In this document: one piece after another, positions 31,468-59,515 of the stretch
How positions within the stretch are numbered: position 1 is the stretch's first letter
How the letters are laid out: the number at the start of each line of letters is the position of its first letter
NCBI GenBank assembly: GCA_016124845.1
Contig: WGMW01000029.1
Span: 1 to 64,000 of the forward strand
Length of the DNA: 64,000 nt
Direction: 5' to 3'
From: Flavobacteriales bacterium
Lineage (GTDB): Bacteria; Bacteroidota; Bacteroidia; UBA10329
Program-made: the position numbers and the translations under genes
The notes under the pieces: model-generated
What the model saw: the letters and a program-made list of their open reading frames with translations, nothing else
What the model was told of the DNA's origin: nothing
Databases searched by the model: none

Positions 31468-31539
31468 TACGGTTTTTTGAAGCAAAAAATGGCTTTCGGC
31501 TAATGAAATTGATTGACAAAGCAGGCAACTTTTTGCCCT

Positions 31540-31547
31540 TACATTTG
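31540..31547 (+). promoter_or_regulatory. -7 promoter element of the FG-GAP protein gene
   Basis: TACATTTG matches the -7 consensus; the leader to ATG 31574 would be about 20 nt. The best -33 candidate (ATTG 31512-31515) is 24 bp away, slightly too far. Confidence 0.5.
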
Positions 31548-31573
31548 TCTGAAAGACATCCAATAATTCTTCG

Positions 31574-36380: not shown

Positions 36381-36460
36381 ATTTCGCAGTCTGTTTACCT
36401 TGCGTTCAAATTCGTGTTGCAATAGGCAACCCGTAAAATTCACCCTCGTTATCTGTTTGC

Positions 36461-37036
36461 GTGCAACCAACTGACCAAGAGCTCCAAGATCTGATAGCCG
36501 GTTGTCTGAAAAACGACCGCAAATGCCAGCAGAAGATCTACGAGATGTTCTATGGGAAAATGTTGGGAGTATGCATGAGGTACACCCGAGATCTTGACCA
36601 AGGAAAAGAATTGGTGCAGGAAGGATTCATCAAGCTCTTCGGAAACCTCGAAAAGTATAAGAACGATGGTTCTTTTGAAGGCTGGGTGAGGCGTATTTTC
36701 ACGAACAACGCGATCGACTCATTCAGAAGGAAAAAGCACCAGGATTTTGTACCGGATGATGATTATCAGGTACTGAATTTGGCCGATGACAAGGACGAAC
36801 ACGAATTTTTAGACCCCGAAGAGGAAACCATTCAACCAAAACACGTCATAGAAGCGATGCAGCAACTTTCCCCAGCATATCAGATGGTCTTCAACCTCTA
36901 TGTAATGGAGAATTACTCGCATCAGGAAATTGCCGATGAATTGGGTATAAGTGTGGGAACTTCCAAATCGAACCTCGCCAAAGCGCGGATGAACATGAAG
37001 AAGATCCTGAAAAAACAATTTGCCGACCGACTTTAA
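36461..37036 (+). CDS. ECF-type RNA polymerase sigma factor
   Basis: The product (191 aa) is a sigma-70 family ECF factor: region 2 at about 24-92 (MLGVCMRYTRDLDQGKELVQEGFIKLF, then FEGWVRRIFTNNAIDSFRR) and region 4 at about 128-182 (LSPAYQMVFNLYVMENYSHQEIADELGISVGTSKS). It starts with GTG 36461; the frame is closed just upstream and no ATG is available. Six bases after its stop starts the gene for a membrane protein with an anti-sigma-like N-terminus, so the pair is a sigma/anti-sigma module. It resembles T9SS-linked regulators such as P. gingivalis SigP only in class. The nearest candidate targets are the adhesin genes that follow. Confidence 0.9.
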   Translation: MQPTDQELQDLIAGCLKNDRKCQQKIYEMFYGKMLGVCMRYTRDLDQGKELVQEGFIKLFGNLEKYKNDGSFEGWVRRIFTNNAIDSFRRKKHQDFVPDDDYQVLNLADDKDEHEFLDPEEETIQPKHVIEAMQQLSPAYQMVFNLYVMENYSHQEIADELGISVGTSKSNLAKARMNMKKILKKQFADRL

Positions 37037-37042
37037 AGACAC

Positions 37043-38344
37043 ATGAGTAACCCATTTGACGATAAAATAAAGCAGGCACTCGAGGAATTCGAGATGCCAT
37101 ACGATGCCAACGCTTGGGCGGAACTGGAGAAGCAGCTTCCGCAAAGTGGCGGTGCCGCGCCCGGTGGCAACCAGTTCAACTGGAAGCTGGCAGCCCTTTT
37201 TGCAGCCGTGGCCACCATTGCCACTACTATTTGGTATGTGAACCGACCTGAGAAAACAGATGTGGCTGAAACAACTACAGAAACCGTTGTTGTTGAAACA
37301 CCCGAACAGAATGAGGTGATCGAGAGCGATGATGCCATTGGTGTGTCTGGAACACACGAAGAGCGCAGAACTGAAGCCGTAACTGAAACCCATCCTTCGA
37401 AAGAAGCTGCTGAGAAAGCTGTGGCTTCGGATAAGTCGGTTCTGAAAGACCAGAAACCTGTCGATGTGCAGAACACTTCTGCACAGAAAGACGAAAAACC
37501 AGCTCCTGTTGCCGAACCAACGAAAGATGAATCACCCATCAAAGTTGTTCCGAGCAAAACCGAACAGCAGAATTTTGTGGTGGATTTCAAACCAAGCGCG
37601 GTGGTTGTGTGTGCTGGATCGGATGTCACATTCATCAACAGTTCATCTGATAAGAACGCTGAAATGGTGTGGGATTTCGGTGATGGCGAAACAAGCACGG
37701 AACTGAACCCGGTTCATAACTACGTTCTTTCAGGAAACTACACCGTCACCTTAAGCGGCTCTAAGGGTTCCAAAAGTGCAGATCATTCGGTAACGGTTAC
37801 CGTCAATCCCGCTCCAACGCCAATGTTCTCGGCTTCTCGAAAACTGGACGGTTACGTGGTCATTCCGCTCTACTCTTTCGGCACGGGAACACAACCGGGC
37901 GAAACTGCCGTTTGGAGCTTCTCTGATGGTTCGAAAAGTGTCGGAAACGCAACGGACCATCTGTTCAGAGAAGGTGGAAAACACAAGGTTGAGCTCACCG
38001 TTACCAATCAGTACGGTTGCTCTACTAAGATTGACGAATCGTACACGACCTACGAGGATTTTGACCTGCTGGCGCCACAGGCATTCACTCCCAATGGCGA
38101 TGGCAACAATGAGACTTTTATTCCAGTTGCTTTATCAGAAATGGGAATTGCTTTCAATCTGATCATTCGCAACCAAACAGGCCACATCGTTTATCAGACA
38201 AGCAACGCCAACGAACCATGGGACGGAACGCTGAACAATGGCAGCCAGAAAGCAGATGTAGGCGTTTATTTCTGGACCGTACTGCTAAAAGAAAATGTAG
38301 TTAGTAAAAAAGACTTCAATGGTACAATTCACCTGTCACGCTAA
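37043..38344 (+). CDS. Anti-sigma-like membrane protein with PKD and type-B T9SS C-terminal domain
   Basis: The product (433 aa) has a cytoplasmic N-terminus of about 47 residues (PFDDKIKQALEEFEMPYDA, NAWAELEKQL), of the kind seen in Bacteroidota anti-sigma-like proteins, then one membrane segment (about 48-65) and no cleavable signal peptide. A Thr/Glu/Val-rich low-complexity linker (68-175) follows, then a PKD domain (about 183-256, WDFGDGETSTELNP) and a PKD-like domain (260-335). Residues 343-433 (QAFTPNGDGNNETF ... WDGTLNNGSQ) are a gliding-motility/T9SS type-B C-terminal domain (TIGR04131). It is 6 bp downstream of the sigma gene. The combination of an anti-sigma-like head with a secretion signal is the oddest feature of the locus. 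The anti-sigma role is inference; the domains are seen. Confidence 0.8.
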   Translation: MSNPFDDKIKQALEEFEMPYDANAWAELEKQLPQSGGAAPGGNQFNWKLAALFAAVATIATTIWYVNRPEKTDVAETTTETVVVETPEQNEVIESDDAIGVSGTHEERRTEAVTETHPSKEAAEKAVASDKSVLKDQKPVDVQNTSAQKDEKPAPVAEPTKDESPIKVVPSKTEQQNFVVDFKPSAVVVCAGSDVTFINSSSDKNAEMVWDFGDGETSTELNPVHNYVLSGNYTVTLSGSKGSKSADHSVTVTVNPAPTPMFSASRKLDGYVVIPLYSFGTGTQPGETAVWSFSDGSKSVGNATDHLFREGGKHKVELTVTNQYGCSTKIDESYTTYEDFDLLAPQAFTPNGDGNNETFIPVALSEMGIAFNLIIRNQTGHIVYQTSNANEPWDGTLNNGSQKADVGVYFWTVLLKENVVSKKDFNGTIHLSR

Positions 38345-38387: not shown

Positions 38388-40619
38388 ATGACCTCACACA
38401 TTTTAAACCCGATAAAACGACTGATTCCCATCTTGGCATGGGTTCTCGGCCTTTTGTCTGCCCAAACAATGGTGGCGCAAACAGTTGATGTTGGACCACC
38501 GGATACGTCTGTTTGTAACGGTCAACCGATAACACTTACCGCGGTAACCACAGGAGTGAACACGAATCCAACATTCACGTCCATAAACGTTCCTTCGGAT
38601 GATATTCACTCTCAGGTACTGAACATTGGGTTTCCCTTCCAATTCTTCGGGAACACTTACACACAATGCGTGGCATCGTCCAATGGCTATATCACGTTCG
38701 ATCTTACGCAGGCAAATGCATATTCTCCTTGGAGCATTGGTAGTGCAAGCCCAACTCCGGGTGTACCCGACAATGCCATCATGTTCCCTTGGCAGGACAT
38801 TAATCCAGGTGCAGGTTCTGGTGGAACCAATGCTGCCGATTGTGGAGATGGAACCTTTGTCATAGACTATGTGGATATTGCCATGTTCAGTTGCACCAGT
38901 TTGAACTTCACCATGCAAGTGGTGCTCCATCAGGGAACAAATTATATAGACACCTACATCACCAACAAACCGCTTTGCACCACTTGGAACGGTGGTGCTG
39001 CCATTCACGGTCTGGAGAATGCAACCGGAACCCAAGCAGTTATTGTGCCCGGAAGAAATTTCCCGACACAATGGTCTGTGACCAATGATGCGGTCAGATT
39101 TGTTCCGGATGGATTTGGAAGTTACACCATCGACCAGACCATTCCTTTCAACCCGATTCCTGTGGGGCAGGAAGTGATCGAATGGACAGATGAGTCAGGA
39201 ACAGTTTTGGGAAACCAGAACAGCATCACAGTAACACCGACACAACCGACCTGGTATTACTGTACTTACAAATCCGCTTGCTCTGCCATCACCGTTTCAG
39301 ATTCCATTCTGGTTACGCTCGGAAACGTGAACATTTCGGCCCAACCTACTGACGCAAGCTGCTATAGCTATGATGATGGGTTTGTACGCATCGACCCGGT
39401 TGGGAGTACATTCCCGGTAACGTTGGGTCTATTGGATGCCAATCAGAATGTGCTTCAAACAGTCAATAACGTAAACGGAATCGACACCCTTTTTGGGCTG
39501 ATCGCTGGCGACTATACCGCCACCGTAACCGATGGTGTCGGTTGTACTACCGAACTCAATTTCGCTATTGATGAACCCACGGAATTGGTTGCAAATGCAG
39601 ATCATTTGGACATTCTCTGCAACGGTGACGACAACGGAACCGCCTGGGCATACCCAAGCGGAAGCGTTCCTCCGTACACATTCCAATGGAATGATCCGCT
39701 TCAGCAGGTTAAAGACTCTATCGGTTTCCTTGCTCCGGGAGCTTACACGCTTACGGTCACCGATTCTCACAATTGTGTTGACGACACCACATTGAGCATT
39801 CTTGAGCCTCTTCCGCTGATCTTGGATCTTACCTCTGGTGCTGACACCTGCCTTTACACGAATGGTGCTGTGCGCGCTGCCTTGCAAGGAGGCACACCGC
39901 CTTATGCTTATGACTGGAGCAACTTGGGCGGTGACTCTGCAAACTATTCCATCGATCTTGTGAACACAGCATGGAGCATGATTTCCAATCTCTCTCAAGG
40001 CGAATACGCAGTCACCGTTACAGACTCGAACAACTGCGAAATTGACGGCAGCATAGAAGTACCGCTGATTCCGCCACCGTTGGCCGATTTCCTAAGCCGT
40101 TCAAAACCAGAGGAATTCGTTGACCCGAACGTCTTGTTTGACAACCAAAGTACAGCTGCGCTCACCTATGAATGGCATTTTGGCGATGGCAATATTTCTT
40201 ACGAAGAAGACCCTGAACATTCGTATGACACATCAGGAGTTTATCTGGTGATGCTTATTGCCTATAACGAACCTCAGTACGGCTGTGCCGACACTACATT
40301 CAATTACATTGAAGTTGAACCGTTCTTCACGTTTTATGTGCCAAGCGGCTTTACACCGGATGATGATGGCAAAAATGACACGTGGGGTCCAGTGGGACAG
40401 AATTTTGAAGTAGAGAGCTACAACGTGAAAATTTACGACCGTTGGGGAACGCTGATCTGGCAGACCGACAACCCGGAGAAACGATGGGACGGAACCATGC
40501 AGAGCAGCACAAAAGATGTTCCGCAGGGAATGTACGTCTATGTGTTCACTATGAAGAAGTTCAACACGTTTGAACCCAAGGTGATAAAAGGAACGGTAAC
40601 GCTGTATCGACATAAATAA
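38388..40619 (+). CDS. SprB-repeat adhesin A with type-B T9SS C-terminal domain
   Basis: The product (743 aa) begins at ATG 38388 with a signal peptide of about 32 residues (TMVA-Q). An N-terminal beta-sandwich domain (about 50-245; GFPFQFFGNTYTQCVASSNGYITF), resembling nidogen-type domains, is shared with the next adhesin. Three SprB repeats (PF13573) follow with the pattern CNGDDNGTAWAYPSGSVPPYTFQW ... GAYTLTVTDSHNC, then a PKD domain (YEWHFGDGNISYEEDPEHSY) and the type-B C-terminal domain (FTFYVPSGFTPDDDGKNDTW ... YDRWGTLIW) at about 650-743. Secreted by T9SS and displayed on the surface. SprB of Flavobacterium is the gliding adhesin; here adhesion is likely, gliding is not shown. Confidence 0.88.
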   Translation: MTSHILNPIKRLIPILAWVLGLLSAQTMVAQTVDVGPPDTSVCNGQPITLTAVTTGVNTNPTFTSINVPSDDIHSQVLNIGFPFQFFGNTYTQCVASSNGYITFDLTQANAYSPWSIGSASPTPGVPDNAIMFPWQDINPGAGSGGTNAADCGDGTFVIDYVDIAMFSCTSLNFTMQVVLHQGTNYIDTYITNKPLCTTWNGGAAIHGLENATGTQAVIVPGRNFPTQWSVTNDAVRFVPDGFGSYTIDQTIPFNPIPVGQEVIEWTDESGTVLGNQNSITVTPTQPTWYYCTYKSACSAITVSDSILVTLGNVNISAQPTDASCYSYDDGFVRIDPVGSTFPVTLGLLDANQNVLQTVNNVNGIDTLFGLIAGDYTATVTDGVGCTTELNFAIDEPTELVANADHLDILCNGDDNGTAWAYPSGSVPPYTFQWNDPLQQVKDSIGFLAPGAYTLTVTDSHNCVDDTTLSILEPLPLILDLTSGADTCLYTNGAVRAALQGGTPPYAYDWSNLGGDSANYSIDLVNTAWSMISNLSQGEYAVTVTDSNNCEIDGSIEVPLIPPPLADFLSRSKPEEFVDPNVLFDNQSTAALTYEWHFGDGNISYEEDPEHSYDTSGVYLVMLIAYNEPQYGCADTTFNYIEVEPFFTFYVPSGFTPDDDGKNDTWGPVGQNFEVESYNVKIYDRWGTLIWQTDNPEKRWDGTMQSSTKDVPQGMYVYVFTMKKFNTFEPKVIKGTVTLYRHK

Positions 40620-40643: not shown

Positions 40644-43600
40644 GTGTATGATCTGAAGTTTTATCGAATAAGTTTCTTTAGCCTTCTGATCTTTCTGACC
40701 GCATGGTCGGATGCCTTTGCCCAACCGGGTTGCCCGAACATTGTCTGCGGCCCCAATCAATCTGTCGATTGTAATGTCAATTGTGTTGACCTTACGGCAA
40801 CCGTGCTTGAAACTGGCACTACCGAAACCTATACCGTATCGTCTGTTCCCTACGCTCCTCCCGCACCTTTTACCGGAGGAACCGCTCAGTTCATAAACAC
40901 AGATGACATTTGGGGAGACGTAATCAACCTTCCGTTCAATTTCTGTTTTTATGGAAACCAGTACAATCAGGTGGTCATTGGTGCCAACGGGTTGATAACA
41001 TTTGATGTATCCCTGGCCACTCAGTTCTGTGCCTGGTCCTACACGGCAAGTTGCCCCACACCAGGCCCACCACCAGGTGGACTCTACAACAATTCCATCA
41101 TGGGCGCCTATCACGATATCGACCCAAGCATGGGAGGCGATATTTCATACTTCATTCAAGGTTCGGCTCCTTGCAGAATGTTTGTTGTCAGTTTTCATGA
41201 CGTTCCTCATTATGACTGTGACTGTAGTTTCTTCTCATCTTGCAAGAAAACGACCCAGCAGATCGTTATTTACGAAACGACCAACGTAATAGAAGTTTAC
41301 ATTCAGCAAAAGGAACTCTGTAGCAGTTGGAACAATGGCAACGCCACCATCGGCATTCAGGATGCCACCGGTAGCACGGGAGTTACACCTCCTGGAAGGA
41401 ATACCGGTGCATGGACGGCCAGCAACGAAGGTTGGAGGTTTACGCCCAGCGGCACACCGAACTATGTTGTCACCTGGTACGATGGAAATACTGTTGTTGG
41501 AAATGGCCTGACCGTAAACGTGTGTCCGAGTGCCACAACCACCTACGATGCAGAAGTTGTATATACCAACTGCGATGGAGCTACGGTTACGGTAACCGAC
41601 CAAGTAACGGTGACCCAGAACAGCACCGTTTCAGTAAGTGTGTCTCCTGCCAACACCGATGTTTGTAGCGCAACTCCCACAACACTTACGGCCAGCAGTC
41701 CCAACTCGGGAATGAGCTACACTTGGTCTCCGGCCACAGGGCTTTCGGCAACAACGGGGACAACCGTTGATGCCACGCCAACCACAACCACAACTTATAC
41801 GGTTACGGGAAGTGACGGCACCTGCTCAGCAAGTGCCAATGCCATCATCAACGTAGTGCAAGTTTCAGCAACCACATCATCCACAGATGCTTCTTGCGCG
41901 GGCGATGACGGTACAGCTACCGTCACTCCGAGCGGAGGCGTAACGCCCTACACCTATTCTTGGAGTACCAATCCTCCACAGAGTACGCAAACAGCTACAG
42001 GCTTGGCCGCTGGCAATTATGATGTAACCGTAACGGACGCCACGGGCTGCACCCACACAGAAACGGTTACCGTGAATCTGACCCTTGGTTCGCTTTCTCC
42101 TCCTGACGTTACAGCAACAGATGCCATTTGCACCAGCGATAACGGAACCGCAACGGCTACTCCAATAGACGGAACTGCTCCATTCGCATATCAATGGGAT
42201 GATGCTGCCGCACAGACCACACAAACGGCTGTTGGACTGGCGGCTGGCACATACAATGTCACTATTACGGATGCAGGAGGATGCCAATCATCCAATTCGG
42301 TTGTTGTCGGTATCGATCCCGGAGACCTCGCAGTAAGTATTTCAAACTCAACCGATGTATTGTGCAATGGATCGTGTGATGGAACTGCTACCGCCACAAC
42401 ACAGGGAGGAACAGCGCCTTACCTTTTTGTTTGGGACGATCCCGCCAATCAGCAAACAGCACAGGCAACCAACCTTTGTGCAGGAACTTACAATGTGGGT
42501 GTTGCTGACGCGAACGGCTGCCTGGCCACCGATCAGGTTATAATTGGGGAGCCAACGGCCATAATACCAAGTGCGGTCATGGACGCACAATCCAATTGTG
42601 GCAACCCAGATGGGCAGGCAACAGCATCTGCAACAGGAGGAACTGTCGCTGTAGATTATAGCTATTCATGGAACTCAACTCCAGTTCAAACCTCTGCAAC
42701 AGCCACGGGGCTGACGCCTGCAACATACACGGTCACGGTTACTGATGACAACGGCTGTACAGCATCTACAGACGTGGATGTAACCTCCACACCGGGATTC
42801 ACGGCCAGTATCTCATCATTTACAGACGCAATTTGCTTTTCGAACTGCGATGGCGAAGCTACCGTACAGGCCAATGCAGGCAATACACCACCGCTCACTT
42901 ATGCTTGGAACACAGTTCCTGTACAAGCCTCTGCAACCGCTACTTCGCTTTGTGCAGGAAATTACGATGTGACCATAACTGATGCACTCGGTTGCATGGC
43001 CACAACCTCGGTCACCATCGGCCAACCTGTAAAGTTGACCGCCACGGTCAATGCAAGCGCCAGCCCAATTTGCATCGGTGAGTCAAGCGATCTTACATCT
43101 GTGCTGATCGGTGGTACGGCTCCTTATGGGCAATTCTCTTGGACAGCTTCGCCAACCGACCCAACACTGGTCGGGTCGCAGCAGAACCCAACAGTCTCTC
43201 CGATCATTTCCACCACATATACATTTAGCGGAGCCGATGCCAACGGCTGTACTTCTACACCTGTGGACGTTACAGTGGAAGTCCTCGATCCGCTTACCCT
43301 AACTATTGAACGGCCTTTGTTCAGCCCAGATACGGGAATCTGTCCGTACGATTTTGCTGTGATCGACCTTTCTGCAACAGGCGGTGACGAGAATTACAGC
43401 TACTATCTGCAACCCGACCTGACAACACCTTTGAGTTTGCCAATGCAGGTTGAACCGGGAACCACCACCACATACGATTTTGTTGTGAATGACGGATGCA
43501 CCACACCGCCTGCTTCAGCTTCAAGTACCATCACGGTTTTTCAATTGCCTCAAGTGGATTTCACCGCTGAACCGCCCAACGGCTGTGATGAACTGACGAC

Positions 43601-44333
43601 CAATTTCACCGATCAGACAACGCCTACCCCGGTAGCATGGAATTGGAATTTTGGAGACCCGAACTCAAACTCCAACACAAGTGCAGTTCAAGACCCCATC
43701 CATAAGTTCTCAGGCCCGGGGCTTTACAGCATTTCGCTCTCTGTTGAATCTACAGATGGCTGCGTGAACGATTCAACGAAGACCGATTACGTGGAGGTGT
43801 ACCCGTTGCCACAGGCAGACTTTGACCTCAACCCGGAGACAACGGATGTGATGAACGCAGAGGTCACTTTTACGGATCAATCAAACGGAAATATCGCCAC
43901 ATGGAACTGGAGTTTCGGTACGGGCGATACTTCCATGGCTCAAAATCCTGTTTACACGTACGAAGACACAGGAACCTACACGGTCACACTTCTGGTTGTC
44001 ACCGATCATGGCTGTGAAGACAATACTTCCCGAAGAGTTATCATTGAACCGTACTACACATTTTATGTTCCCAATGCTTTTTCGCCAAATAGCGATGGCA
44101 AGAACGACTACTTCCGTGGCTATGGTGAAGGCGTAGACTGGAACACTTATCAAATGTCCATTTTCGACAGATGGGGGGAAGAGATCTTTTACACCAACGA
44201 CATTGACAACCCTTGGAACGGCTGGTTCAAGAACAAGCAGGTGCCTAATGACGTGTATGTATGGTCCATCACCATTTACGATCTGAAAGGCGAGATGCAT
44301 ACTTTCCGTGGACGTGTCACGGTAATGCGTTAG
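40644..44333 (+). CDS. SprB-repeat adhesin B with type-B T9SS C-terminal domain
   Basis: The product (1229 aa) starts at GTG 40644, preceded and overlapped by AGGAGG, an unusual Shine-Dalgarno-like site for this phylum; an ATG four bases later is out of frame and stops at once. The signal peptide is about residues 1-26 (DAFA-Q). The N-terminal domain (about 70-270) is homologous to that of adhesin A. Then come an Ig-like region with TWSPATGLSATTG, about five to six SprB repeats (410-850), an Ig-like module (TLTIERPLFSPDTGICPYDF..., 930-1040), two PKD domains (1040-1140) and the type-B C-terminal domain (FYVPNAFSPNSDGKNDYFRGYGEG ...). The last 300 residues closely follow those of adhesins C and D, which shows gene duplication. 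Confidence 0.88.
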   Translation: MYDLKFYRISFFSLLIFLTAWSDAFAQPGCPNIVCGPNQSVDCNVNCVDLTATVLETGTTETYTVSSVPYAPPAPFTGGTAQFINTDDIWGDVINLPFNFCFYGNQYNQVVIGANGLITFDVSLATQFCAWSYTASCPTPGPPPGGLYNNSIMGAYHDIDPSMGGDISYFIQGSAPCRMFVVSFHDVPHYDCDCSFFSSCKKTTQQIVIYETTNVIEVYIQQKELCSSWNNGNATIGIQDATGSTGVTPPGRNTGAWTASNEGWRFTPSGTPNYVVTWYDGNTVVGNGLTVNVCPSATTTYDAEVVYTNCDGATVTVTDQVTVTQNSTVSVSVSPANTDVCSATPTTLTASSPNSGMSYTWSPATGLSATTGTTVDATPTTTTTYTVTGSDGTCSASANAIINVVQVSATTSSTDASCAGDDGTATVTPSGGVTPYTYSWSTNPPQSTQTATGLAAGNYDVTVTDATGCTHTETVTVNLTLGSLSPPDVTATDAICTSDNGTATATPIDGTAPFAYQWDDAAAQTTQTAVGLAAGTYNVTITDAGGCQSSNSVVVGIDPGDLAVSISNSTDVLCNGSCDGTATATTQGGTAPYLFVWDDPANQQTAQATNLCAGTYNVGVADANGCLATDQVIIGEPTAIIPSAVMDAQSNCGNPDGQATASATGGTVAVDYSYSWNSTPVQTSATATGLTPATYTVTVTDDNGCTASTDVDVTSTPGFTASISSFTDAICFSNCDGEATVQANAGNTPPLTYAWNTVPVQASATATSLCAGNYDVTITDALGCMATTSVTIGQPVKLTATVNASASPICIGESSDLTSVLIGGTAPYGQFSWTASPTDPTLVGSQQNPTVSPIISTTYTFSGADANGCTSTPVDVTVEVLDPLTLTIERPLFSPDTGICPYDFAVIDLSATGGDENYSYYLQPDLTTPLSLPMQVEPGTTTTYDFVVNDGCTTPPASASSTITVFQLPQVDFTAEPPNGCDELTTNFTDQTTPTPVAWNWNFGDPNSNSNTSAVQDPIHKFSGPGLYSISLSVESTDGCVNDSTKTDYVEVYPLPQADFDLNPETTDVMNAEVTFTDQSNGNIATWNWSFGTGDTSMAQNPVYTYEDTGTYTVTLLVVTDHGCEDNTSRRVIIEPYYTFYVPNAFSPNSDGKNDYFRGYGEGVDWNTYQMSIFDRWGEEIFYTNDIDNPWNGWFKNKQVPNDVYVWSITIYDLKGEMHTFRGRVTVMR

Positions 44334-44465: not shown

Positions 44466-47400
44466 ATGTTTTCTCCGAAACGTTTCCATCTTATCTTGAT
44501 GCTGCTCGCCATGTTGATGGCACGTGGTAAGGAAGCGTTTTCGCAATGCGGACCGCTGACGACCATCTATGCCGGAAACAACGGTCAGGATGGGATCATG
44601 TTCGACATTACCGCCATCAATAGCGTAAACATTACCCATTTTGACATTGATGCCTACGGGAACACCCACAACTACGAGATCTACCACAAGGTGGGCACGC
44701 ACGTTGGGTTTGAGACCAATGGAGGCGCATGGACCCTTTTAGGAACGGCAGGAAACGTACCCGGAAACCCGAGAAACTCCCCAACAGCAGTTCCCATCAA
44801 CTTCAGCGTGCACATGTGTCCCGGTGAAAGACATGCTTTTTATATTACCAGCACAAGTACAAGTGCCAGTGTGAGTTACACCAACGGTACGGGCGTAGGC
44901 AACATTGCAGCCTCAGATGCAAACATTCAGATCAGAGAAGGAACGGGCAAGGACTACCCATTCAATACGAGCTACACGCCAAGAATTCCCAACATAACCT
45001 GTTACTACAACTGTACGCAAAGCTGTTGCGAACCGCCAACGATCAATCCGACCGCAACGAGTTGTCAGGGGGCGTGCGATGGTAGTGCCACTGCCTCGGC
45101 AGGAGCAGGAAGCGTTGCACCATATACCTACCAATGGAATGCGGCTACAGGAAACCAGACCGGAACAACTGCCTCCTCGTTGTGTACCGGATCCTACTCG
45201 GTAACGGTTACAGACGCAACCGGCTGTGTTGCCACTTCATCGACCGTGGTACCAAGCGGCCCGCCCATCACTGTTCCCAGCATCAGCCCGGCAGGTCCAT
45301 TCTGTGAAACACAGGGCAACCAGACCCTTTATGCTTCCGTTTCGGGCGGAACTTGGAGTGGAAATGGCATCACCAACGCCTCGGCAGGGACATTTTCGCC
45401 CTCGGCAGCCGGCCCCGGAACATGGACCATCACGTATTCGCTTCCCGGCCAATGCGGAAGTTCGTCCACCACAACAATTACGGTCAATGCGCAGGCTGAT
45501 GCATCCATCATTCCGGCAGGTCCTTTCTGTGTTTCAGATGCTCCTGTCAATCTATCTGCTGCCACTCCTGGGGGCTCTTGGAGCGGAAATGGCATCATTA
45601 ACAGCACTACCGGCACATTTCAACCATCGATTGCGGGAGTAGGGACCTGGAACATCCAATATCAGATAAATGGATCGTGTGGAGCAACCGACAGCGAATC
45701 CATCACCGTTACGGCAGGAGCAGATGCCACCATAACCACAGCGGGTTCCTATTGCGAAAACGTGACACCCTTCAACTTAACGGCCTTGTCTCCGGGAGGA
45801 ACTTGGAGCGGACCGGGAATTGTGGATGCTGCCACAGGTCTTTGGGATCCAAGTGTAGCCGGCCCTGGAACTTGGACCGTGACATACACCATTCCCGCCC
45901 CATGTGGCGATACGGATGACGCGACCCTGACCGTAACGCCCGGAGCAGATGCAAGCATCACCCCTGCCGGCCCCTTCTGCTTGAATGATGCGCCAGTTGT
46001 GCTGTCAGCAGCCGATCCTGGCGGAACCTGGGTCGGAGCCGGAATAACCAATGCGAACACGGGTGCTTTCGATCCGGGTACCGCAGGAGTTGGAACATGG
46101 ACCATCCTCTACACGATACCCGGAGCCTGTGGTCAGAGCCAATCCACGCAGATCTCTGTAAGTAACGGTTATGACGCAACTATCAACGCTGTTCCTATTC
46201 AATGTACTACTGGTTCGCCCATAACGCTGACCGCGGCCAATGCCGGTGGCACGTGGAGCGGTCCTGGAATTACCGATGGACTGGCCGGAACATTCGATCC
46301 AAGCGTTGCCGGACCTGGAAACCACATCATCCACTATGACATTCCCGGAGGTTGTGGTGATTCGGATGTGCGTGTGATAACCGTGAATCAGGGCGCAGAT
46401 GCAACGATCGACCCAATTCCAACACTTTGTACGAACAGCCCGATCATGAATCTGACGGCCGCTTCTCCCGGTGGTTCTTGGTCAGGAACGGGAATCATCA
46501 ATCCAAGTGCAGGAACTTTCTTCCCAGGTGCCGTGAGTCCGGGAACTTGGACCGTGACCTACAATATTACCGGCTCGTGTGGCGACATCGACACGGAAAC
46601 CATCACCATCGAACCTGTGGGGAATCCGACCATCACTCCTGTTCCACCGATGTGTTCAGATGGTCTGAACATTACGATGACCGCTGCCACAGCAGGAGGC
46701 ACATGGAGCGGAACAGGAATCACCAACCCAAGTACTGGAAGTTTCAGTCCGGCCGTGGCAGGACCCGGGAACTGGACCATCACCTACACGCTTCCTGGCG
46801 CCTGTGGAGGAACTGACACGGAGGTTGTAACGGTTTCGCCTCCAATCGTTCTTAATACGACCGTTGACCAGCAATCTCACTGCGGACAACCAGATGGGAT
46901 CATATCAGTCAGCGCCTCTGGCGGAACGGTTGCCAATGGTTATTCCTATACATGGAGCACATCGCCAGCGCAGACAGCAGCAACAGCTTCCGGTCTCGGG
47001 CCGGGAAACTACGCGGTTACTGTAACGGATGATCTTGGCTGTACGGCCTCTTCAAGTGTGACGGTTACTCCAACAACCGGTTTTACAGCCTCCGTCAGTT
47101 CTACCACCGATGTTTCGTGTGCACAATCGTGCGATGGCACCGCAACCGTGACCGCTGGCGCGGGAAGCATTGGCGCATTGACCTATTCGTGGAACACAAC
47201 TCCTGCACAAACAGGAGCAACAGCAACAAACCTTTGTGCTGGCAATTACGATGTGACCGTGACCGACAACGTGGGATGCTCGACCATTGCTTCCGGAACA
47301 GTTGGAGCACCACCGAGTTTTACCGCAGCAGCAAGTAATTCAGGCTCGCCCATCTGTTTTGGAGAATCGGCTACGCTGAACGTGACGGCCTCTGGTGGAG

Positions 47401-50400
47401 CCACGCCTTATGCTTCCTATTCGTGGAGCGCCAGTCCATCCGACCCGACACTTACCAGCCCGAATTCGCAAAGCCCAACGGTTTCCCCAACGGGTTACAC
47501 CACATACACGGCCACGGTAACGGATGCCAATGGTTGCACAACCACCGCACAAACCTCTGTGGATAGAGGAACTGAGATCATTCTGACACCTGAATTGATC
47601 CAGCAATCGAACTGCGGACAGCCGGATGGAATCATCACGGTGAATGTGACGGGCGGATTCGTGGACAGCACTTACACCTATTTGTGGGATACCACACCAG
47701 CCGAAACAACTGATACGGTTACAGGGCTTGTTGCCGGGACTTACAACGTAACGGTAACCGATGATGTCGGCTGTTCGGCCACCACAAGTGTGACAGTCAC
47801 CACATCTGCCGGATTTACTGCTTCGGTTGACACGTACAATGATGTCTCGTGCTATTCGCTTTGCGATGGCGATGCCACGGTGACCATTACAGGAAATTCC
47901 GTGGCTCCGCTCTCCTATTCGTGGAACACAACGCCAGCCCAGACAACGGCCACGGCCACCAACCTGTGTGCTGGAAGCTATGACGTGACCGTGACCGACA
48001 ACACGGGTTGTTCTGCAACCGCATCGGTCACCATCACCGAACCTGCTGAACTGACCATTACGGCAGCCGCTTCTCTTACGCAGCTTTGCGAAGGTGAATC
48101 TTCCGACCTGACCTCTTCCGCTTCTGGCGGAGCCGCACCTATAACGTACTCTTGGGCTGCAAGCCCTGCTGATGCTTCGTTGACCGCATCGCAACAGAAC
48201 CCAACGGTCTCGCCAACGGCAACCACCACTTACACAGTTACTGCAACAGACGCTGGTGGATGTACGGCAACCGAACAAGTGACCGTGAATGTTTCACCCG
48301 CCATTGTTCTGAATGCCGTGATGGATCAGCAATCCAACTGCGGGCAGGCCGATGGCGCGGTTTCGGTGACCGCTTCGGGCGGAACGGTTGCAACGGATTA
48401 TTCTTATTCGTGGGATTCTTCGCCCACGCAGAATACCGCTGCGGCAACAGGTCTGCTCCCGGGAACGTACAATGTGACCGTGACCGATGATGTCGGCTGT
48501 TCAGAAACAGCAAGTGCTGTGGTCACCTCATCTGCCGGATTTACTGCTTCGGTTGACACGTACAATGATGTTTCGTGCTATTCGCTTTGCGATGGCGATG
48601 CCACGGTGACCATTACAGGAAATTCCGTGTCGCCTCTCGCTTATTCGTGGAACACAACGCCTGCCCAGACAACGGCCACGGCTACCAACCTTTGCGCAGG
48701 AAGCTATGACGTGACCGTGACCGACAACACGGGTTGTTCCGCAACCGCATCGGTCACCATCACCGAACCTGCTGAACTGACCATTACGGCAGCCGCTTCA
48801 CTCACGCAGCTCTGCGAAGGTGAATCTTCCGACCTGACCTCTTCCGCATCTGGCGGAGCCGCTCCGATCGCTTATTCGTGGGCAGCCAGTCCAGCAGATG
48901 CTTCGTTGACCGCATCGCAACAGAACCCAACAGTTTCGCCAACGGCAACAACCACCTATACCGTAACTGCAACAGATGGAAACGGGTGTACGGCAACCGA
49001 ACAAGTGACCGTAGATGTAAGTCCCGCAATTACCCTCAATGCCGTGATGGATCAGCAGTCGAACTGCGGGCAGGCGGACGGTGCGGTTTCAGTGACCGCT
49101 TCGGGCGGAACAGTTGCCAACGATTATTCCTATTCATGGGATTCTTCGCCCGCGCAGAACACGGCTGCGGCTACGGGTCTACTTCCTGGAACGTACAATG
49201 TGACCGTGACCGATGATGTCGGCTGTTCGGAAACGGCAAGTGCGGTGGTCACTTCTTCGGCCGGATTCACCGCTTCGGTTGACACCTACAATGATGTTTC
49301 GTGCTATTCGCTTTGCGATGGCGATGCCACGGTGACCATTACAGGAAATGCCGTGTCGCCTCTCGCTTATTCGTGGAACACAACTCCGGCACAGACAACA
49401 GCCACGGCCACCAACCTATGCGCAGGAAGCTATGACGTGACCGTGACCGATAACACGGGTTGTTCCGCTACCGCATCGGTCACCATCAGCGAACCTGCTG
49501 AACTGACCATTACGGCAGCAGCTTCACTCACGCAGCTTTGCGAAGGTGAATCTTCCGACCTGACATCTTCCGCATCTGGCGGAGCCGCTCCGATCGCTTA
49601 TTCGTGGGCAGCCAGTCCGGCAGATGCTTCATTGACCGCATCGCAACAGAACCCAACGGTCTCGCCAACGGCAACAACCACCTATACCGTAACTGCAACA
49701 GATGGAAACGGGTGTACGGCAACAGAACAAGTGACCGTGAATGTTTCGCCCGCCATTGTTCTGAATGCCGTGATGGATCAGCAATCCAACTGCGGGCAGG
49801 CGGACGGTGCGGTTTCGGTGACCGCTTTGGGCGGAACAGTTGCCAACGATTATTCCTATTCATGGGATTCATCGCCAGCACAGAATACCGCAGCGGCAAC
49901 AGGTCTGCTTCCGGGAACGTATAACGTGACCGTGACCGATGATGTCGGCTGTTCAGAAACAGCAAGTGCTGTGGTCACTTCTTCGGCAGGATTCACAGCA
50001 TCGATTGACACCTACAATGATGTTTCGTGCTATTCGCTTTGCGATGGTGATGCCACCGTGACCATTACAGGAAATGCCGTGTCGCCACTCGCTTATTCGT
50101 GGAACACAACGCCAGCGCAGACCACGGCCACGGCCACCAACCTTTGCGCAGGAAGCTACGATGTGACCGTGACCGATAACACGGGTTGCATGGCAATGGC
50201 CTCTGTAACGATTGCAGAACCAGCAGCTTTGACGGTTACTGCAGCAGCTTCCAGCACATTGCTCTGCGGAGGGCAATCATCCGACCTAACGGCAACTGTT
50301 AGCGGTGGAAACCAACCAACTTTCAGTTGGACGGCAACACCTGCCGATGCTACATTGAATGGCTCCACGCAAAACCCGACCGTTACACCAACGGCAAACA

Positions 50401-53400
50401 CGGTCTATGAAGTAACCGTAACCGATGGTGGATGTACGGCCACCGATCAGGTTTCGGTGAACGTGAGTCCTGGAATCACACTCAATGCGACCATGGACCA
50501 ACAATCGAACTGTGGTCAATCTGACGGTATTGTTTCGGTTGCTGCCTCTGGCGGAACGGTGGCCAACGACTACGGTTATTCTTGGGATTCTTCACCAGCA
50601 CAAACGACCGCGTCCGCCACGGGACTTCCTCCCGGAACCTATACCGTGACCGTGACCGATGATGCCGGTTGCACAGAAACAGCTTCGGTGGATGTCATCA
50701 CTTCTGGAGGATTTGCAGCTTCCATTTCGGCTCAGACAGATGCAAACTGCTATCAGGGATGCGATGGAGCGGCTACCGTTGTTGCAGATGCGAATGCCAT
50801 CGCACCGCTCACCTACGCTTGGAATACAACTCCAGCCCAATCAACGGCAACAGCCACGGGTCTTTGCGCAGGAACAATTGATGTAACCGTGACCGACAAC
50901 GTTGGCTGCGTGGCCACCACATCGGTTACCATCGCGGAACCGACAGCGTTTGAAGTCACCGTTTCGGCATCCAGTCCAACGGTCTGCACCGGAGGTTCTA
51001 CCGACCTGAGCGCAGCAACCACCGGAGGAAATCAAACCAACGTGACATACAGTTGGTCGGCATCGCCTGCCGATCCTTCGTTGAATGCCTCTGCACAGAA
51101 CCCAACGGTCTCTCCGACCGCAAGTACGGTTTACACCGTAACAGCAACAGACGGAAACGGATGTACGGCCACGGACCAGATTACCATTGACATTGCTGCT
51201 TCGCTGACGGTAAACGTGACCTTGGATCAGCAGGCTGCTTGCGGACAGGCTACAGGCGTGGCAACAGCAATCGCCTCTGGCGGAACCGTAGCTGTTGATT
51301 ACGCGTATGGCTGGAACACAACTCCCGCCCAAACAACCGCAACCGCAACGGGGCTTGCTCCGGGAACCTATACGGTTGTTGCGCTGGATGATGCTGGTTG
51401 CACGGGTTCTGCTGACATCACGGTAACGACATCGGCAGGATTTACGGCTTCCATTTCTGCCTCCACCGATGCCACCTGCTATCAGGCGTGTGACGGAACG
51501 GCTACTGTGGCGGAAGATGCCAATGCGGTGGCACCCGTAACGTATTCATGGAATACAACGCCAGCACAAACCACCGCGACAGCCACCAACCTCTGTGCAG
51601 GAAACTATGATGTGACGCTGACAGACGCAGCAGGATGTGTGACCACAGCATCGGTCACTATTAACGAACCGACCGAATTGACCGCGACAGCCGCAGCATC
51701 TCAAGCAACTATATGCGGTGGTGGAACTTCTGATCTTTCGGCCATTGGCGCAGGCGGAACCGGACCTTACACTTACAGTTGGTCTGCAACACCTGCGGAC
51801 GCATCCTTGAGTGCATCGCAACAGAACCCAACCGTTTCTCCAACGGCAAACACAACTTATACGGTGACTGTCGCAGATGACAATGGATGTTCGGCAACCG
51901 ATCAGACTTCCGTGTCGATTTCTCCGGCCATTTCGCCAAGCGCGGTGATGAACCAAGAGTCGAACTGCGGACAGGCAGATGGAGAAGCAACCGCTTCGGC
52001 AACAGGTGGCAGCGTGGCCAATGATTACGCGTATTCGTGGAACTCGACACCAACGCAAACAACGGCCACCGCAACCGGACTTCTGCCCGGAACTTACACC
52101 GTGACCATTACGGATGATATTGGATGTTCGGCAACTGCCGATGTCGACATCACTACAACTTCCGGTTTCACCGCAAGCATTACAGGCTCAACGGATGCCA
52201 ATTGTTTCCAAGGATGTGATGGAACGGCAACGGTGCAAGAAAGTGCCGGGGCGGTAGCTCCGGTAATCTATGCTTGGGGAACGGTTCCACCGCAACTTTC
52301 TGCCACCGCCACCAATCTCTGCGCTGGAACCTATCAGGTATTGGTTTCGGATGCAACCGGATGTACAGCAAACGCCTCTGTAACTATTGCTGAACCGACC
52401 GAATTGGAAGCCACAGCTGATGCTTCGGTCACGCAAGTTTGTATAGGTCAATCTGTGGACCTTACCGCGAGCGCTGTAGGAGGAACCACACCTTATGTTT
52501 CTTACTCCTGGACCGCTACGCCCACTGATGCAAGTTTGAATACCACCCAGCAAAACCCAACTGTTTCGCCCACAGCCAACACGACCTACGAGGTAACCGT
52601 TACAGATGCCAACGGATGTACCGCATCTAAGCAGGTTTCCGTAAGTGTTCTTTCTGCGCTTACGCTGAATGTGGTTACACCTTCTTCCAGCCCAGATACA
52701 TCCATCTGTCCGGGAAGCACGGCAACAATCAACCTTTCAGCATCTGGCGGAGATGGCAATTACAGCTATTATCTGCAACCCGACCTGACGAATCCTGTCA
52801 GTCTTCCGATGGCAGTTCAACCCAATGCAACCACAACGTACGATTTTGTAGTTACCGATGGCTGCACCACACCCTCTTCCTCGGCATCAAGCACTATTTC
52901 CATTTTCTCGCTTCCGCAGATCGATATTTCGGGTGGAGATGCCGGATGTCATGTTCATTCCGTTCAGTTGGCGGACAATACGGTTCCAACACCTACTTCT
53001 TGGAACTGGAACTTTGGTGACCCGCAATCGAGCAGCAATACGTCCAGCTCATCATCACCATCTCATACATTCTCCAATCCGGGGTTGTATGACATTTCTC
53101 TAAGCATTGTAACTGCGGATGGCTGTTCGGTTGACACGACCCTGACCGATTACGTTGAGGTTTATCCGTTGCCAGTTGCCGACTTCAACCTCGACCCGAA
53201 CGTGGTCTCGGTGGTGGACGGAACCATCACATTCACCGACCAGTCTTCTGGCAACATTGACACCTGGAACTGGAATTTTGGAACAGGCGATTCTTCCATT
53301 GTTCAGAACCCGGTATATACGTACACCGACACGGGATCATTCATTGTACAGCTTACAGTGACCACGGTCAATGGCTGTCAATCTACCACGAGAGGTTCTG

Positions 53401-53696
53401 TCAAGGTGACACCCGTTTTCACATTTTACATTCCCAACAGTTTCACCCCGAACGGAGATGGCGTAAATGACTTTTTCCAACCTTATGGGGAAGGAGTAGA
53501 CTGGAACACGTTCTCAATGGAGATCTTCAATCGATGGGGGGATAAGATCTATGTTACCAACGACATCGGTCACCCTTGGGATGGAACCATGAACGGGCAT
53601 CCTGCTGAAATGGGTGTTTACGTTTGGTCGATATCCATTCGTCAAACAAAAAACATGATGCACTACTACCATGGACATGTCAACCTTTTGAGATAG
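44466..53696 (+). CDS. Giant SprB-repeat adhesin C (3076 aa)
   Basis: The signal peptide is about residues 1-27 (EAFS-Q). A unique beta-rich domain (28-180) ends in a Cys cluster (CYYNCTQSCC). One SprB repeat follows, then seven ~75-aa repeats (about 268-795) of the pattern PAGPFC...PGGTWSGNGI...AGPGTWTITY...CG. From about 800 to 2710 the chain consists of ~80-aa modules in sets of three, including SprB repeats and Ig-like units; one 242-aa set is repeated almost exactly (see 47804-50196). The end holds the conserved Ig-like module, two PKD domains and the type-B T9SS C-terminal domain (FYIPNSFTPNGDGVNDFFQPYGEG). It is Thr/Ser/Ala rich with very little Lys, and would be a long surface filament. 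Confidence 0.9.
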   Translation: MFSPKRFHLILMLLAMLMARGKEAFSQCGPLTTIYAGNNGQDGIMFDITAINSVNITHFDIDAYGNTHNYEIYHKVGTHVGFETNGGAWTLLGTAGNVPGNPRNSPTAVPINFSVHMCPGERHAFYITSTSTSASVSYTNGTGVGNIAASDANIQIREGTGKDYPFNTSYTPRIPNITCYYNCTQSCCEPPTINPTATSCQGACDGSATASAGAGSVAPYTYQWNAATGNQTGTTASSLCTGSYSVTVTDATGCVATSSTVVPSGPPITVPSISPAGPFCETQGNQTLYASVSGGTWSGNGITNASAGTFSPSAAGPGTWTITYSLPGQCGSSSTTTITVNAQADASIIPAGPFCVSDAPVNLSAATPGGSWSGNGIINSTTGTFQPSIAGVGTWNIQYQINGSCGATDSESITVTAGADATITTAGSYCENVTPFNLTALSPGGTWSGPGIVDAATGLWDPSVAGPGTWTVTYTIPAPCGDTDDATLTVTPGADASITPAGPFCLNDAPVVLSAADPGGTWVGAGITNANTGAFDPGTAGVGTWTILYTIPGACGQSQSTQISVSNGYDATINAVPIQCTTGSPITLTAANAGGTWSGPGITDGLAGTFDPSVAGPGNHIIHYDIPGGCGDSDVRVITVNQGADATIDPIPTLCTNSPIMNLTAASPGGSWSGTGIINPSAGTFFPGAVSPGTWTVTYNITGSCGDIDTETITIEPVGNPTITPVPPMCSDGLNITMTAATAGGTWSGTGITNPSTGSFSPAVAGPGNWTITYTLPGACGGTDTEVVTVSPPIVLNTTVDQQSHCGQPDGIISVSASGGTVANGYSYTWSTSPAQTAATASGLGPGNYAVTVTDDLGCTASSSVTVTPTTGFTASVSSTTDVSCAQSCDGTATVTAGAGSIGALTYSWNTTPAQTGATATNLCAGNYDVTVTDNVGCSTIASGTVGAPPSFTAAASNSGSPICFGESATLNVTASGGATPYASYSWSASPSDPTLTSPNSQSPTVSPTGYTTYTATVTDANGCTTTAQTSVDRGTEIILTPELIQQSNCGQPDGIITVNVTGGFVDSTYTYLWDTTPAETTDTVTGLVAGTYNVTVTDDVGCSATTSVTVTTSAGFTASVDTYNDVSCYSLCDGDATVTITGNSVAPLSYSWNTTPAQTTATATNLCAGSYDVTVTDNTGCSATASVTITEPAELTITAAASLTQLCEGESSDLTSSASGGAAPITYSWAASPADASLTASQQNPTVSPTATTTYTVTATDAGGCTATEQVTVNVSPAIVLNAVMDQQSNCGQADGAVSVTASGGTVATDYSYSWDSSPTQNTAAATGLLPGTYNVTVTDDVGCSETASAVVTSSAGFTASVDTYNDVSCYSLCDGDATVTITGNSVSPLAYSWNTTPAQTTATATNLCAGSYDVTVTDNTGCSATASVTITEPAELTITAAASLTQLCEGESSDLTSSASGGAAPIAYSWAASPADASLTASQQNPTVSPTATTTYTVTATDGNGCTATEQVTVDVSPAITLNAVMDQQSNCGQADGAVSVTASGGTVANDYSYSWDSSPAQNTAAATGLLPGTYNVTVTDDVGCSETASAVVTSSAGFTASVDTYNDVSCYSLCDGDATVTITGNAVSPLAYSWNTTPAQTTATATNLCAGSYDVTVTDNTGCSATASVTISEPAELTITAAASLTQLCEGESSDLTSSASGGAAPIAYSWAASPADASLTASQQNPTVSPTATTTYTVTATDGNGCTATEQVTVNVSPAIVLNAVMDQQSNCGQADGAVSVTALGGTVANDYSYSWDSSPAQNTAAATGLLPGTYNVTVTDDVGCSETASAVVTSSAGFTASIDTYNDVSCYSLCDGDATVTITGNAVSPLAYSWNTTPAQTTATATNLCAGSYDVTVTDNTGCMAMASVTIAEPAALTVTAAASSTLLCGGQSSDLTATVSGGNQPTFSWTATPADATLNGSTQNPTVTPTANTVYEVTVTDGGCTATDQVSVNVSPGITLNATMDQQSNCGQSDGIVSVAASGGTVANDYGYSWDSSPAQTTASATGLPPGTYTVTVTDDAGCTETASVDVITSGGFAASISAQTDANCYQGCDGAATVVADANAIAPLTYAWNTTPAQSTATATGLCAGTIDVTVTDNVGCVATTSVTIAEPTAFEVTVSASSPTVCTGGSTDLSAATTGGNQTNVTYSWSASPADPSLNASAQNPTVSPTASTVYTVTATDGNGCTATDQITIDIAASLTVNVTLDQQAACGQATGVATAIASGGTVAVDYAYGWNTTPAQTTATATGLAPGTYTVVALDDAGCTGSADITVTTSAGFTASISASTDATCYQACDGTATVAEDANAVAPVTYSWNTTPAQTTATATNLCAGNYDVTLTDAAGCVTTASVTINEPTELTATAAASQATICGGGTSDLSAIGAGGTGPYTYSWSATPADASLSASQQNPTVSPTANTTYTVTVADDNGCSATDQTSVSISPAISPSAVMNQESNCGQADGEATASATGGSVANDYAYSWNSTPTQTTATATGLLPGTYTVTITDDIGCSATADVDITTTSGFTASITGSTDANCFQGCDGTATVQESAGAVAPVIYAWGTVPPQLSATATNLCAGTYQVLVSDATGCTANASVTIAEPTELEATADASVTQVCIGQSVDLTASAVGGTTPYVSYSWTATPTDASLNTTQQNPTVSPTANTTYEVTVTDANGCTASKQVSVSVLSALTLNVVTPSSSPDTSICPGSTATINLSASGGDGNYSYYLQPDLTNPVSLPMAVQPNATTTYDFVVTDGCTTPSSSASSTISIFSLPQIDISGGDAGCHVHSVQLADNTVPTPTSWNWNFGDPQSSSNTSSSSSPSHTFSNPGLYDISLSIVTADGCSVDTTLTDYVEVYPLPVADFNLDPNVVSVVDGTITFTDQSSGNIDTWNWNFGTGDSSIVQNPVYTYTDTGSFIVQLTVTTVNGCQSTTRGSVKVTPVFTFYIPNSFTPNGDGVNDFFQPYGEGVDWNTFSMEIFNRWGDKIYVTNDIGHPWDGTMNGHPAEMGVYVWSISIRQTKNMMHYYHGHVNLLR
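45265..46853 (+). repeat. Seven diverged ~225-bp (75-aa) repeats within adhesin C
   Basis: Seven consecutive units each contain GG(T/S)W(S/V)G.GI, then F.P..AG.GTW or a variant, and CG before a short strand ending in (G)ADA(T/S)I. They differ by many substitutions, so they are older than the 726-bp repeats further on. Confidence 0.8.
47804..50196 (+). repeat. 726-bp near-identical tandem repeat (about 3.3 copies) in adhesin C
   Basis: The landmark CTTCGGTTGACAC recurs at 47821, 48547 and 49273, and as CATCGATTGACAC at 49999, exactly 726 bp (242 codons) apart each time. Each unit encodes three modules (TASVDTYNDVSCYSLCDGD..., AAASLTQLCEGESSDLTSS..., MDQQSNCGQADGAVSV...). Differences between copies are mostly single silent or conservative changes, so expansion is recent. 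Such repeats invite recombination and may be miscounted in assembly. Confidence 0.9.
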
Positions 53697-53865: not shown

Positions 53866-54318
53866 TTGAGGCCGACCGACCTACGCCTGATCGCGTTTTT
53901 GTCTTTTACTGTGCTATCCGTTCTGGCGAGCGGCAAACTGTTTGCGCAGATCGATCAGCAAACATCAACCATCTATTCCAGTGCTGGCGTTTCCATTACA
54001 TCGCAATTGGAAGATTGCCATGACACTAAAAACGGCACACATAAACAGTACGTTCTCCTTTCCATCTCCAACGAGAAAAATACTGCCATCAAAATCTCTT
54101 GGAAACGGGAACTCTGGCATGATGGAAAGTGTACTACCTGCATGGCAGATAGTGATGAATACCATACTTCTGTAGAGATTCCGGCAAATACCACATTGAG
54201 TGGCGAATGCACCGAAAACAACGGGCTGAGGATCTTTGTAAAGATGCTCGATCTGAAAGATGTTCGGCAGTTGACGCATTACGAACTGAAAGAAATAACG
54301 GTGACCGATGTGGAATAG
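53866..54318 (+). CDS. Small exported protein of unknown function
   Basis: The product (150 aa) has a signal peptide at about 1-27 (KLFA-Q) and a mature part with a beta-strand pattern and four cysteines (near residues 50, 89, 92 and 114). I do not recognise a family. The only usable start is TTG 53866; an ATG at 53843 is followed by a stop after eight codons. The 3' end overlaps the start of adhesin D by 11 bp, so the two are translationally coupled; a partner or chaperone role for that adhesin is possible. The 169 bp upstream show no clear promoter or terminator. Confidence 0.6.
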   Translation: MRPTDLRLIAFLSFTVLSVLASGKLFAQIDQQTSTIYSSAGVSITSQLEDCHDTKNGTHKQYVLLSISNEKNTAIKISWKRELWHDGKCTTCMADSDEYHTSVEIPANTTLSGECTENNGLRIFVKMLDLKDVRQLTHYELKEITVTDVE

Positions 54319-59461: not shown

Positions 59462-59491
59462 ATTGAAAATTTCAACATTTATGTACATTTG
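59462..59491 (+). promoter_or_regulatory. Promoter of the collagen-like protein gene
   Basis: ATTG (59462-59465, 3 of 4), 18 bp, TACATTTG (59484-59491, perfect). The leader to ATG 59516 is about 20 nt. The -7 element overlaps the alternative TTG start at 59489, which argues for the later start. Confidence 0.6.
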
Positions 59492-59515
59492 GGACTTCTT
59501 ACAAAACCCCTATTC

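Follow-up and report, generated by a model that had tools for sequence, protein, structure and literature searches.

An ECF sigma factor and an anti-sigma-like protein with an altered type-B T9SS domain: a predicted link to the expression of type-B surface proteins in Bacteroidota

The sigma/anti-sigma pair and its neighbourhood

The window, i.e. the whole stretch of 64,000 nucleotides analysed here (contig WGMW01000029.1 of a Flavobacteriales bacterium), carries an ECF sigma factor gene with a GTG start that encodes 191 aa (36461..37036, +). The protein contains only regions 2 and 4 of the Sigma70 family, both with Pfam matches above the cut-offs (Sigma70_r2, PF04542, 4.9e-14; Sigma70_r4_2, PF08281, 2e-15), and with ~190 aa has the size of an ECF sigma factor. 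Its model resembles SigW, AlgU and SigmaE, and orthologues in the closest members of the genus are 92-95% identical. The stop codon is followed after 6 bp, and in the same frame, by the gene for a protein of 433 aa (37043..38344, +), which was characterised by Pfam and NCBIfam searches, AlphaFold2 and conservation.

The initial annotation had read this second gene as coding for a membrane segment, a linker, two PKD domains and a C-terminal domain (CTD), a layout that Pfam, NCBIfam and AlphaFold2 confirm. The protein starts with a cytoplasmic head (residues 1-36; 37043..37150, +) that is predicted to bind sigma and contains a conserved Trp and two short helices, placed at residues 4-15 and 22-31 by AlphaFold2 with a 41-sequence alignment. 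A further helix of the model, residues 47-66, is the single membrane helix (37181..37240, +) also seen in the hydropathy profile. The low-complexity periplasmic tether of 105 residues behind it (residues 71-175; 37253..37567, +) is predicted to be disordered, with pLDDT < 50 over residues 71-151, and from ~residue 180 onwards the ectodomain is modelled confidently (block means 93-98). It consists of two PKD domains (residues 176-337; 37568..38053, +; PF18911, 8.3e-23, in two stretches) and a CHU_C/type-B T9SS CTD without the RW export-signal motif (residues 341-433; 38063..38341, +). Foldseek with the ectodomain as query recovers only PKD/Ig-like folds, the best being Aureispira GhpA. The CTD matches PF13585 (CHU_C) with 1.2e-13 and 51.4 bits at a cut-off of 27, and TIGR04131, the profile suggested initially for this C-terminus, with 35.0 bits over residues 344-433, i.e. 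exactly at the cut-off of 35 (38.5 bits in the genome scan).

The position behind the sigma gene, the cytoplasmic head followed by a TM helix and the conservation of the pair correspond to the layout of an anti-sigma factor. An N-terminal Sec signal peptide is not found, the hydrophobic helix starting at residue 47, behind the conserved head. Among the closest genus members the head is the most conserved segment (mean identity 73.5%), and the CTD is conserved well above the linker (57% vs 15%), which argues that the CTD is under selection. In an artificial in-frame fusion to sigma, with the TAA read as Gln, AlphaFold2 gives the head blocks confidences of 88/93/87, as compared to 80/78/88 alone.

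Downstream lie four adhesin genes, all of which end in CHU_C/TIGR04131 domains according to Pfam and NCBIfam, so that the claim of four adhesins with the same class of CTD is borne out. The first, with SprB repeats and PKD (38388..40619, +), is located directly downstream of the anti-sigma gene and is probably co-transcribed with the pair; its orthologue comes after the pair in those genus members whose loci extend that far. The others are a second adhesin with SprB repeats and PKD (40644..44333, +) and two adhesins of 3076 aa (44466..53696, +) and 1698 aa (54308..59404, +). A collagen triple-helix repeat protein of 390 aa (59489-60661) is encoded directly after the adhesin cluster. In the window no PorP/SprF gene adjoins the pair; the downstream genes tested code for CTD adhesins, the collagen-repeat protein and a gyrB-like product.

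The pair is present in all 8 other genus members examined, i.e. in 9/9 members including the window genome, and a search with head and TM helix finds it in a number of further families within the class. Moreover, a survey of ECF genes with TM + CTD partners, as originally suggested, shows that the CTD anti-sigma architecture recurs in many other Bacteroidota families. Thus, the pair is no chance arrangement. The 80 nearest sigma loci from named genomes yielded 78 readable pairs, in which the anti-sigma carries a CTD (30), a barrel (24), or neither (22), or is cut (2). In a barrel set of 24, composed of 23 of the 24 barrel-called survey loci and the one of the window genome itself, 23/24 match OMP_b-brl_2, and in the set of CTD anti-sigmas CHU_C is detected in 28/41 at E 0.01. 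Mapped onto the sigma tree, the CTD label requires 4 changes, as compared to 28 when shuffled, and a divergent malate dehydrogenase gene upstream is common to many CTD-type loci, which points to vertical descent of the locus. Four genomes have record titles that fit neither their SprA nor their locus content (Candidatus Kuenenia, Chryseobacterium gleum, Chitinophaga pinensis and Glaciecola; L040, L043, L045, L058) and are likely to be Flavobacteriales-like genomes under wrong labels.

The pair is not followed by a CTD gene in several families, where an unrelated gene comes next, and for this reason we rejected a model in which regulation is confined to the downstream adhesins. In a sister branch of the sigma group (L057, L065, G036 and locus L032 of G025) the anti-sigmas have no CTD and still lie beside a T9SS gene, which is PorP/SprF (PF11751) in L057, L065 and L032. 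Thus, the CTD is not indispensable for the T9SS link, and the sigma group may be tied to T9SS even without it. As SprA is present in 50/50 genomes tested, one of them below the cut-off, mere co-occurrence with T9SS does not discriminate.

Relation to known systems and the altered C-terminal domain

Dma proteins cross both membranes and their loss frees sigma (PMC13088901). The 433-aa protein is similar in being a sigma-adjacent anti-sigma with an N-terminal head, one TM helix, a long disordered tether and an end directed to the outer membrane (PMC13088901). HHalign relates head and TM helix of the CTD-type to those of the barrel-type anti-sigmas with a probability of 98 and an E-value of 2.9e-13 (reversed control 5), a score to which the TM helix may contribute; the barrel-type set consisted of the barrel loci of the survey, with Dma1 and Dma2 themselves outside it. 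Architecture and head/TM homology to barrel-type anti-sigmas support the original view of an anti-sigma-like protein, and in all likelihood the 433-aa protein is an anti-sigma factor. It ends, however, in PKD-PKD-CHU_C, whereas Dma proteins end in an outer-membrane β-barrel, and for lack of this barrel it is not filed as Dma. Furthermore, the Dma regulon comprises NigD1, PULs and vesiculation (PMC13088901), whereas T9SS type-B cargo is predicted here. Judged by its sequence, the system is best described as a variant within the Dma-like group of anti-sigma systems. The window genome also encodes a Dma-like ECF/anti-sigma pair of the barrel type (L008:1451-3549, G000:C12).

Type-B substrates such as SprB and Fjoh_3952 likewise carry a CHU_C/TIGR04131 CTD behind PKD-type domains, but they possess the RWG motif and start with a Sec signal peptide (PMC12618676, PMC9143113), where the 433-aa protein has a head, a TM helix and no RW. 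As signal peptide and RWG fail, the protein is not filed as type-B substrate in spite of its CHU_C/TIGR04131 domain. The residues Q378-T379-G380 (38174..38182, +) occupy the position of R-W-G in exported type-B CTDs. In a column-wise comparison of 44 CTDs of other proteins in the window genome with 41 anti-sigma CTDs, the Trp of RWG is found in 42/44 exported vs 0/41 anti-sigma CTDs (Fisher p 3e-22, for sequences that are not independent), the Arg in 43/44 vs 7/41, the Gly in 43/44 vs 29/41 and the C-terminal Arg in 35/44 vs 13/41. Other landmarks are mostly kept in the anti-sigma CTDs, i.e. F348, P350, D353, W393 (41/41), G395 (41/41), Y409 and G427, and so are the motifs FTPNGDG, WDG and GxYxW and the terminal strand. 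The anti-sigma CTDs also have conserved positions of their own (A344, P361, L364, F371, W411), and a CTD-domain tree is compatible with their forming one clade (AU p 0.40), the columns being too few to claim that RW was lost repeatedly.

In Flavobacterium johnsoniae secretion of an SprB-CTD fusion depends on every one of five conserved type-B motifs (PMC12618676). Motif order and secondary structure suggest that RWG is one of these published motifs, termed A-E. As RW is absent and the SprB CTD needs each motif for its secretion, the anti-sigma CTD is expected to be export-deficient, and we regard it as likely that it is an export-incompetent mimic of a type-B sorting domain. The initial assignment of a type IX secretion signal to the anti-sigma thus holds insofar as a CHU_C/TIGR04131 domain is present; it is not an ordinary signal, however, since RW is absent and export is unlikely.

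Other sigma factors are connected to T9SS as well. In the PorXY-SigP/PorA system of Porphyromonas gingivalis T9SS genes are likewise under an ECF sigma, upstream of which the CTD-bearing protein PorA acts; SigP, however, is governed by the response regulator PorX, PorA is a separate, surface-translocated CTD protein, and the targets are T9SS machinery with another proposed motif (PMC4800418, PMC7712824). The promoter of the sigma gene described here differs from the published SigP motif. SM6 of Flavobacterium psychrophilum comprises ECF promoters with a CGT -10, including those of an ECF/anti-sigma operon and of T9SS genes, but the targets listed are machinery such as GldN and PorU, and a CTD on the anti-sigma is not mentioned (PMC9723704). 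The adhesin operon remFG-sprCDBF of this organism has sigma-54 and SM5 promoters (PMC9723704).

The sigma promoter and the predicted regulon

For the sigma operon an ECF promoter, GGCAACC-N15-CGTTATC (-35, -10), is predicted at 36425..36453 (+), with 7 bp between the end of its -10 and the GTG start. A matrix built from other genera gives it 18.0 bits, and in an alignment of the upstream regions the block GCAACC-N15-CGTTATC is conserved in 9/9 genus members. The strict motif RGCAACY-N14/15-CGTY precedes the sigma gene in 27/30 CTD-type loci, but in 2/22 'other' and 1/23 barrel loci, i.e. in 3/45 of the remaining loci (Fisher 7e-14), and it is absent upstream of L008, the barrel-type ECF gene of the window genome. 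A promoter in front of its own sigma gene is the typical arrangement of ECF autoregulation. The short distance between -10 and GTG (36447-36461) has counterparts at other loci, and the autoregulated sigma mRNA may be leaderless. Further upstream, TACCTTGC at 36396-36403, conserved in 7 genus members, fits the SM5 box TAnnTTGY of F. psychrophilum and is a possible second, basal promoter.

For a gene-first analysis we picked genes regardless of the motif and scored the 250 bp upstream with a position matrix built from 25 sigma promoters of other genera. In the window genome 14/32 type-B CTD genes reach at least 9 bits, as compared to 0/20 type-A genes and 0/68 ordinary genes (maximum 8.4), with Fisher p values of 1e-8 for type-B vs ordinary and 3e-4 for type-B vs type-A genes. 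The sites in the type-B upstream regions end 30-106 bp before the start codon, and at 11 bits the real matrix picks out 12 regions, column-shuffled ones 0-2. A weaker promoter-like site with one -10 mismatch, GGCAACT-N15-TGTCTGA (31524..31552, +; 11.8 bits), lies upstream of a type-A T9SS cargo gene (31574-34348).

Scanning the nine genus genomes with the pattern GCAACY-N15-CGTYW yields 86 matches, 9 of which are the sigma promoters, all nine being recovered; most of the others sit inside genes and are presumably due to chance. Among the about 26-27 intergenic matches with a complete downstream gene, 18 precede T9SS cargo by 12-98 bp, 9 with TIGR04131 and 9 with TIGR04183 according to NCBIfam (binomial p 2e-12 for 18/27, with a base rate taken as 10% of genes from at least 44 type-B and 150 type-A domains in the window genome). 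Several orthologous cargo genes keep the site in 2 to 4 genomes while the spacers differ. A control with the wrong spacing, N12, gives 29 matches, of which 3 are intergenic and none has a cargo gene downstream. In the GGCAACC controls only two matches, both with N14, precede large secreted genes; these are putative orthologues of the adhesin 44466..53696 in two genus members (L163, L184), with the N14-spaced promoter 35-79 bp upstream, and N14 spacing also occurs in some sigma promoters. A loose pattern, GCAACY-N9..21-CGTYW, was discarded: its 227 matches show no visible excess, and only fixed spacing together with gene context is informative.

In three genomes of another family the pattern precedes type-B cargo (L337, L338, L349, L350) as well as type-A cargo (L301, L339). 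As the genome-wide intergenic matches, too, include type-A cargo, along with a few non-cargo genes, the bias towards type-B is strong but not absolute. In the genome of L058 (G059) all 13 matches to the promoter pattern are on the same chromosomal strand.

With the promoter at 14/32 type-B genes vs 0/68 controls, the proposed control of CTD-bearing genes by sigma has strong computational support. It is highly probable that the sigma regulon is type-B T9SS cargo, and, besides its own gene, a substantial proportion of the type-B T9SS adhesins is very probably transcribed by this sigma. The loop that had been envisaged through the adjacent adhesins stands in that the promoter marks type-B genes, but the predicted regulon is much larger than the adjacent cluster.

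A possible traffic-reading switch and its alternatives

The findings as a whole are best explained, and with somewhat better than even odds, by a sigma/anti-sigma switch that acts on type-B surface proteins of T9SS and whose CTD reads secretion traffic. ECF anti-sigmas keep sigma at the membrane. Here, the ECF sigma would recognise RGCAACY-N14/15-CGTY and transcribe its own operon, probably together with the adjacent adhesins, and many type-B CTD genes, and the head would hold sigma at the inner membrane by a presumed direct contact. Helix and disordered tether would span the periplasm, with the PKD pair and the type-B-like CTD at the outer end in place of a β-barrel; by our estimate the outer membrane lies within reach of the ~105-residue tether and the two PKDs. 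As the fold and most type-B motifs are kept but RW is absent, the CTD may visit the type-B receptor machinery (SprA, PorP/SprF-like shuttles) without being exported. Type-B CTDs are taken up by PorP/SprF-like shuttles, which are made in limiting amounts, and orphan type-B substrates without an adjacent shuttle gene exist (PMC12618676). Cargo CTDs would compete for the receptor sites, so that the extent to which the anti-sigma CTD occupies them would reflect how cargo and export capacity are balanced. Shifts in this occupancy would act on the tether or on intramembrane proteolysis, by which sigma is freed or held. Most likely, the CTD would be engaged, and sigma set free, when export capacity is idle, and a cargo backlog would displace the CTD and turn the regulon off, although the sign is a guess. 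That the anti-sigma CTD reads T9SS traffic at all has about an even chance. More tentatively still, we speculate that the system is a load-measuring switch in which an export-defective signal mimic competes with cargo, the freed sigma transcribes the very class of cargo that is mimicked, and the CTD has replaced a Dma-type barrel.

Alternatively, CTD and PKDs might only anchor the protein near the outer membrane or the peptidoglycan, as in a Dma-like envelope sensor, the signal being the state of the envelope and adhesin control a choice of output. The layout shared with Dma1/Dma2 (head, TM helix, disordered tether, outer-membrane end; PMC13088901), the homologous heads of CTD-type and barrel-type anti-sigmas, the barrel-type pair L008 in the window genome and the missing RW of exported CTDs are all consistent with this. 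We nevertheless regard it as rather improbable, for it leaves unexplained why the end domain is type-B-like and why the promoter marks type-B, but not the sampled type-A genes.

Coupling of sigma activity to a secretion machine is also known from flagellar FlgM, a small soluble exported protein. In an analogous scheme, site-specific proteolysis would be followed by export of the ectodomain via T9SS, the loss of which would free sigma. The CHU_C and TIGR04131 matches at or above curated cut-offs and the retained FTPNGDG, WDG and GxYxW motifs and terminal strand would suit an exported domain, but the RW motif is absent in the 41 homologues (Trp 0/41), the terminal Arg is mostly gone, and there is no cleavable signal peptide, as the helix lies behind a conserved cytoplasmic head. 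In addition, the SprB CTD depends on every conserved type-B motif for secretion (PMC12618676), so that we consider such an export switch unlikely.

Similarly unlikely is a ligand sensor whose PKD/CTD modules bind a ligand common to the adhesins, e.g. unassembled adhesin or a glycan, and thereby release sigma. Its appeal lies in the modules that the anti-sigma has in common with the predicted members of its regulon, just as the clostridial anti-sigma RsgI of the SigI/RsgI system has with its own; RsgI binds polysaccharides, and we know of no sequence relationship of the 433-aa protein to SigI/RsgI or FlgM. PKD domains, however, are detected in only 28/41 CTD-type homologues and the anti-sigma L070 consists of a TM helix, a short linker and the CTD, i.e. 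the CTD is the constant part. Finally, several ECF-like sigma genes in the window genome and the common cross-recognition among ECF factors would allow the promoter to belong to another sigma with the pair as merely one of its targets, but this is very improbable given that the strict motif tracks the sigma clade (27/30 vs 3/45) and is absent at the genome's own barrel-type ECF gene L008.

If the load-measuring reading is true, it amounts to a secretion-coupled feedback loop for T9SS, by which the cell adjusts adhesin production to secretion traffic. Known T9SS regulation mainly concerns the machinery (SigP, SM6), and the matching of giant adhesin output to T9SS capacity is the gap addressed here. 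In the literature searched, from which subscription journals were mostly absent, we found no description of a CTD-bearing anti-sigma, so that the novelty is provisional; new here are anti-sigma CTDs without the RWG Trp and a conserved ECF promoter tied to type-B CTD genes. For many, mostly uncultured, lineages this defines a dedicated sigma together with its promoter and predicted type-B regulon, Dma-type double-membrane anti-sigmas are extended to a second kind of outer module, secretion-coupled control of T9SS becomes directly testable, and the promoter motif allows the prediction of adhesin regulons.

The head itself varies in number among the homologues. In L054, L064, L071 and L093 the head motif occurs two or three times in tandem before the TM helix, and the repeated heads may represent several sigma-binding units per anti-sigma.
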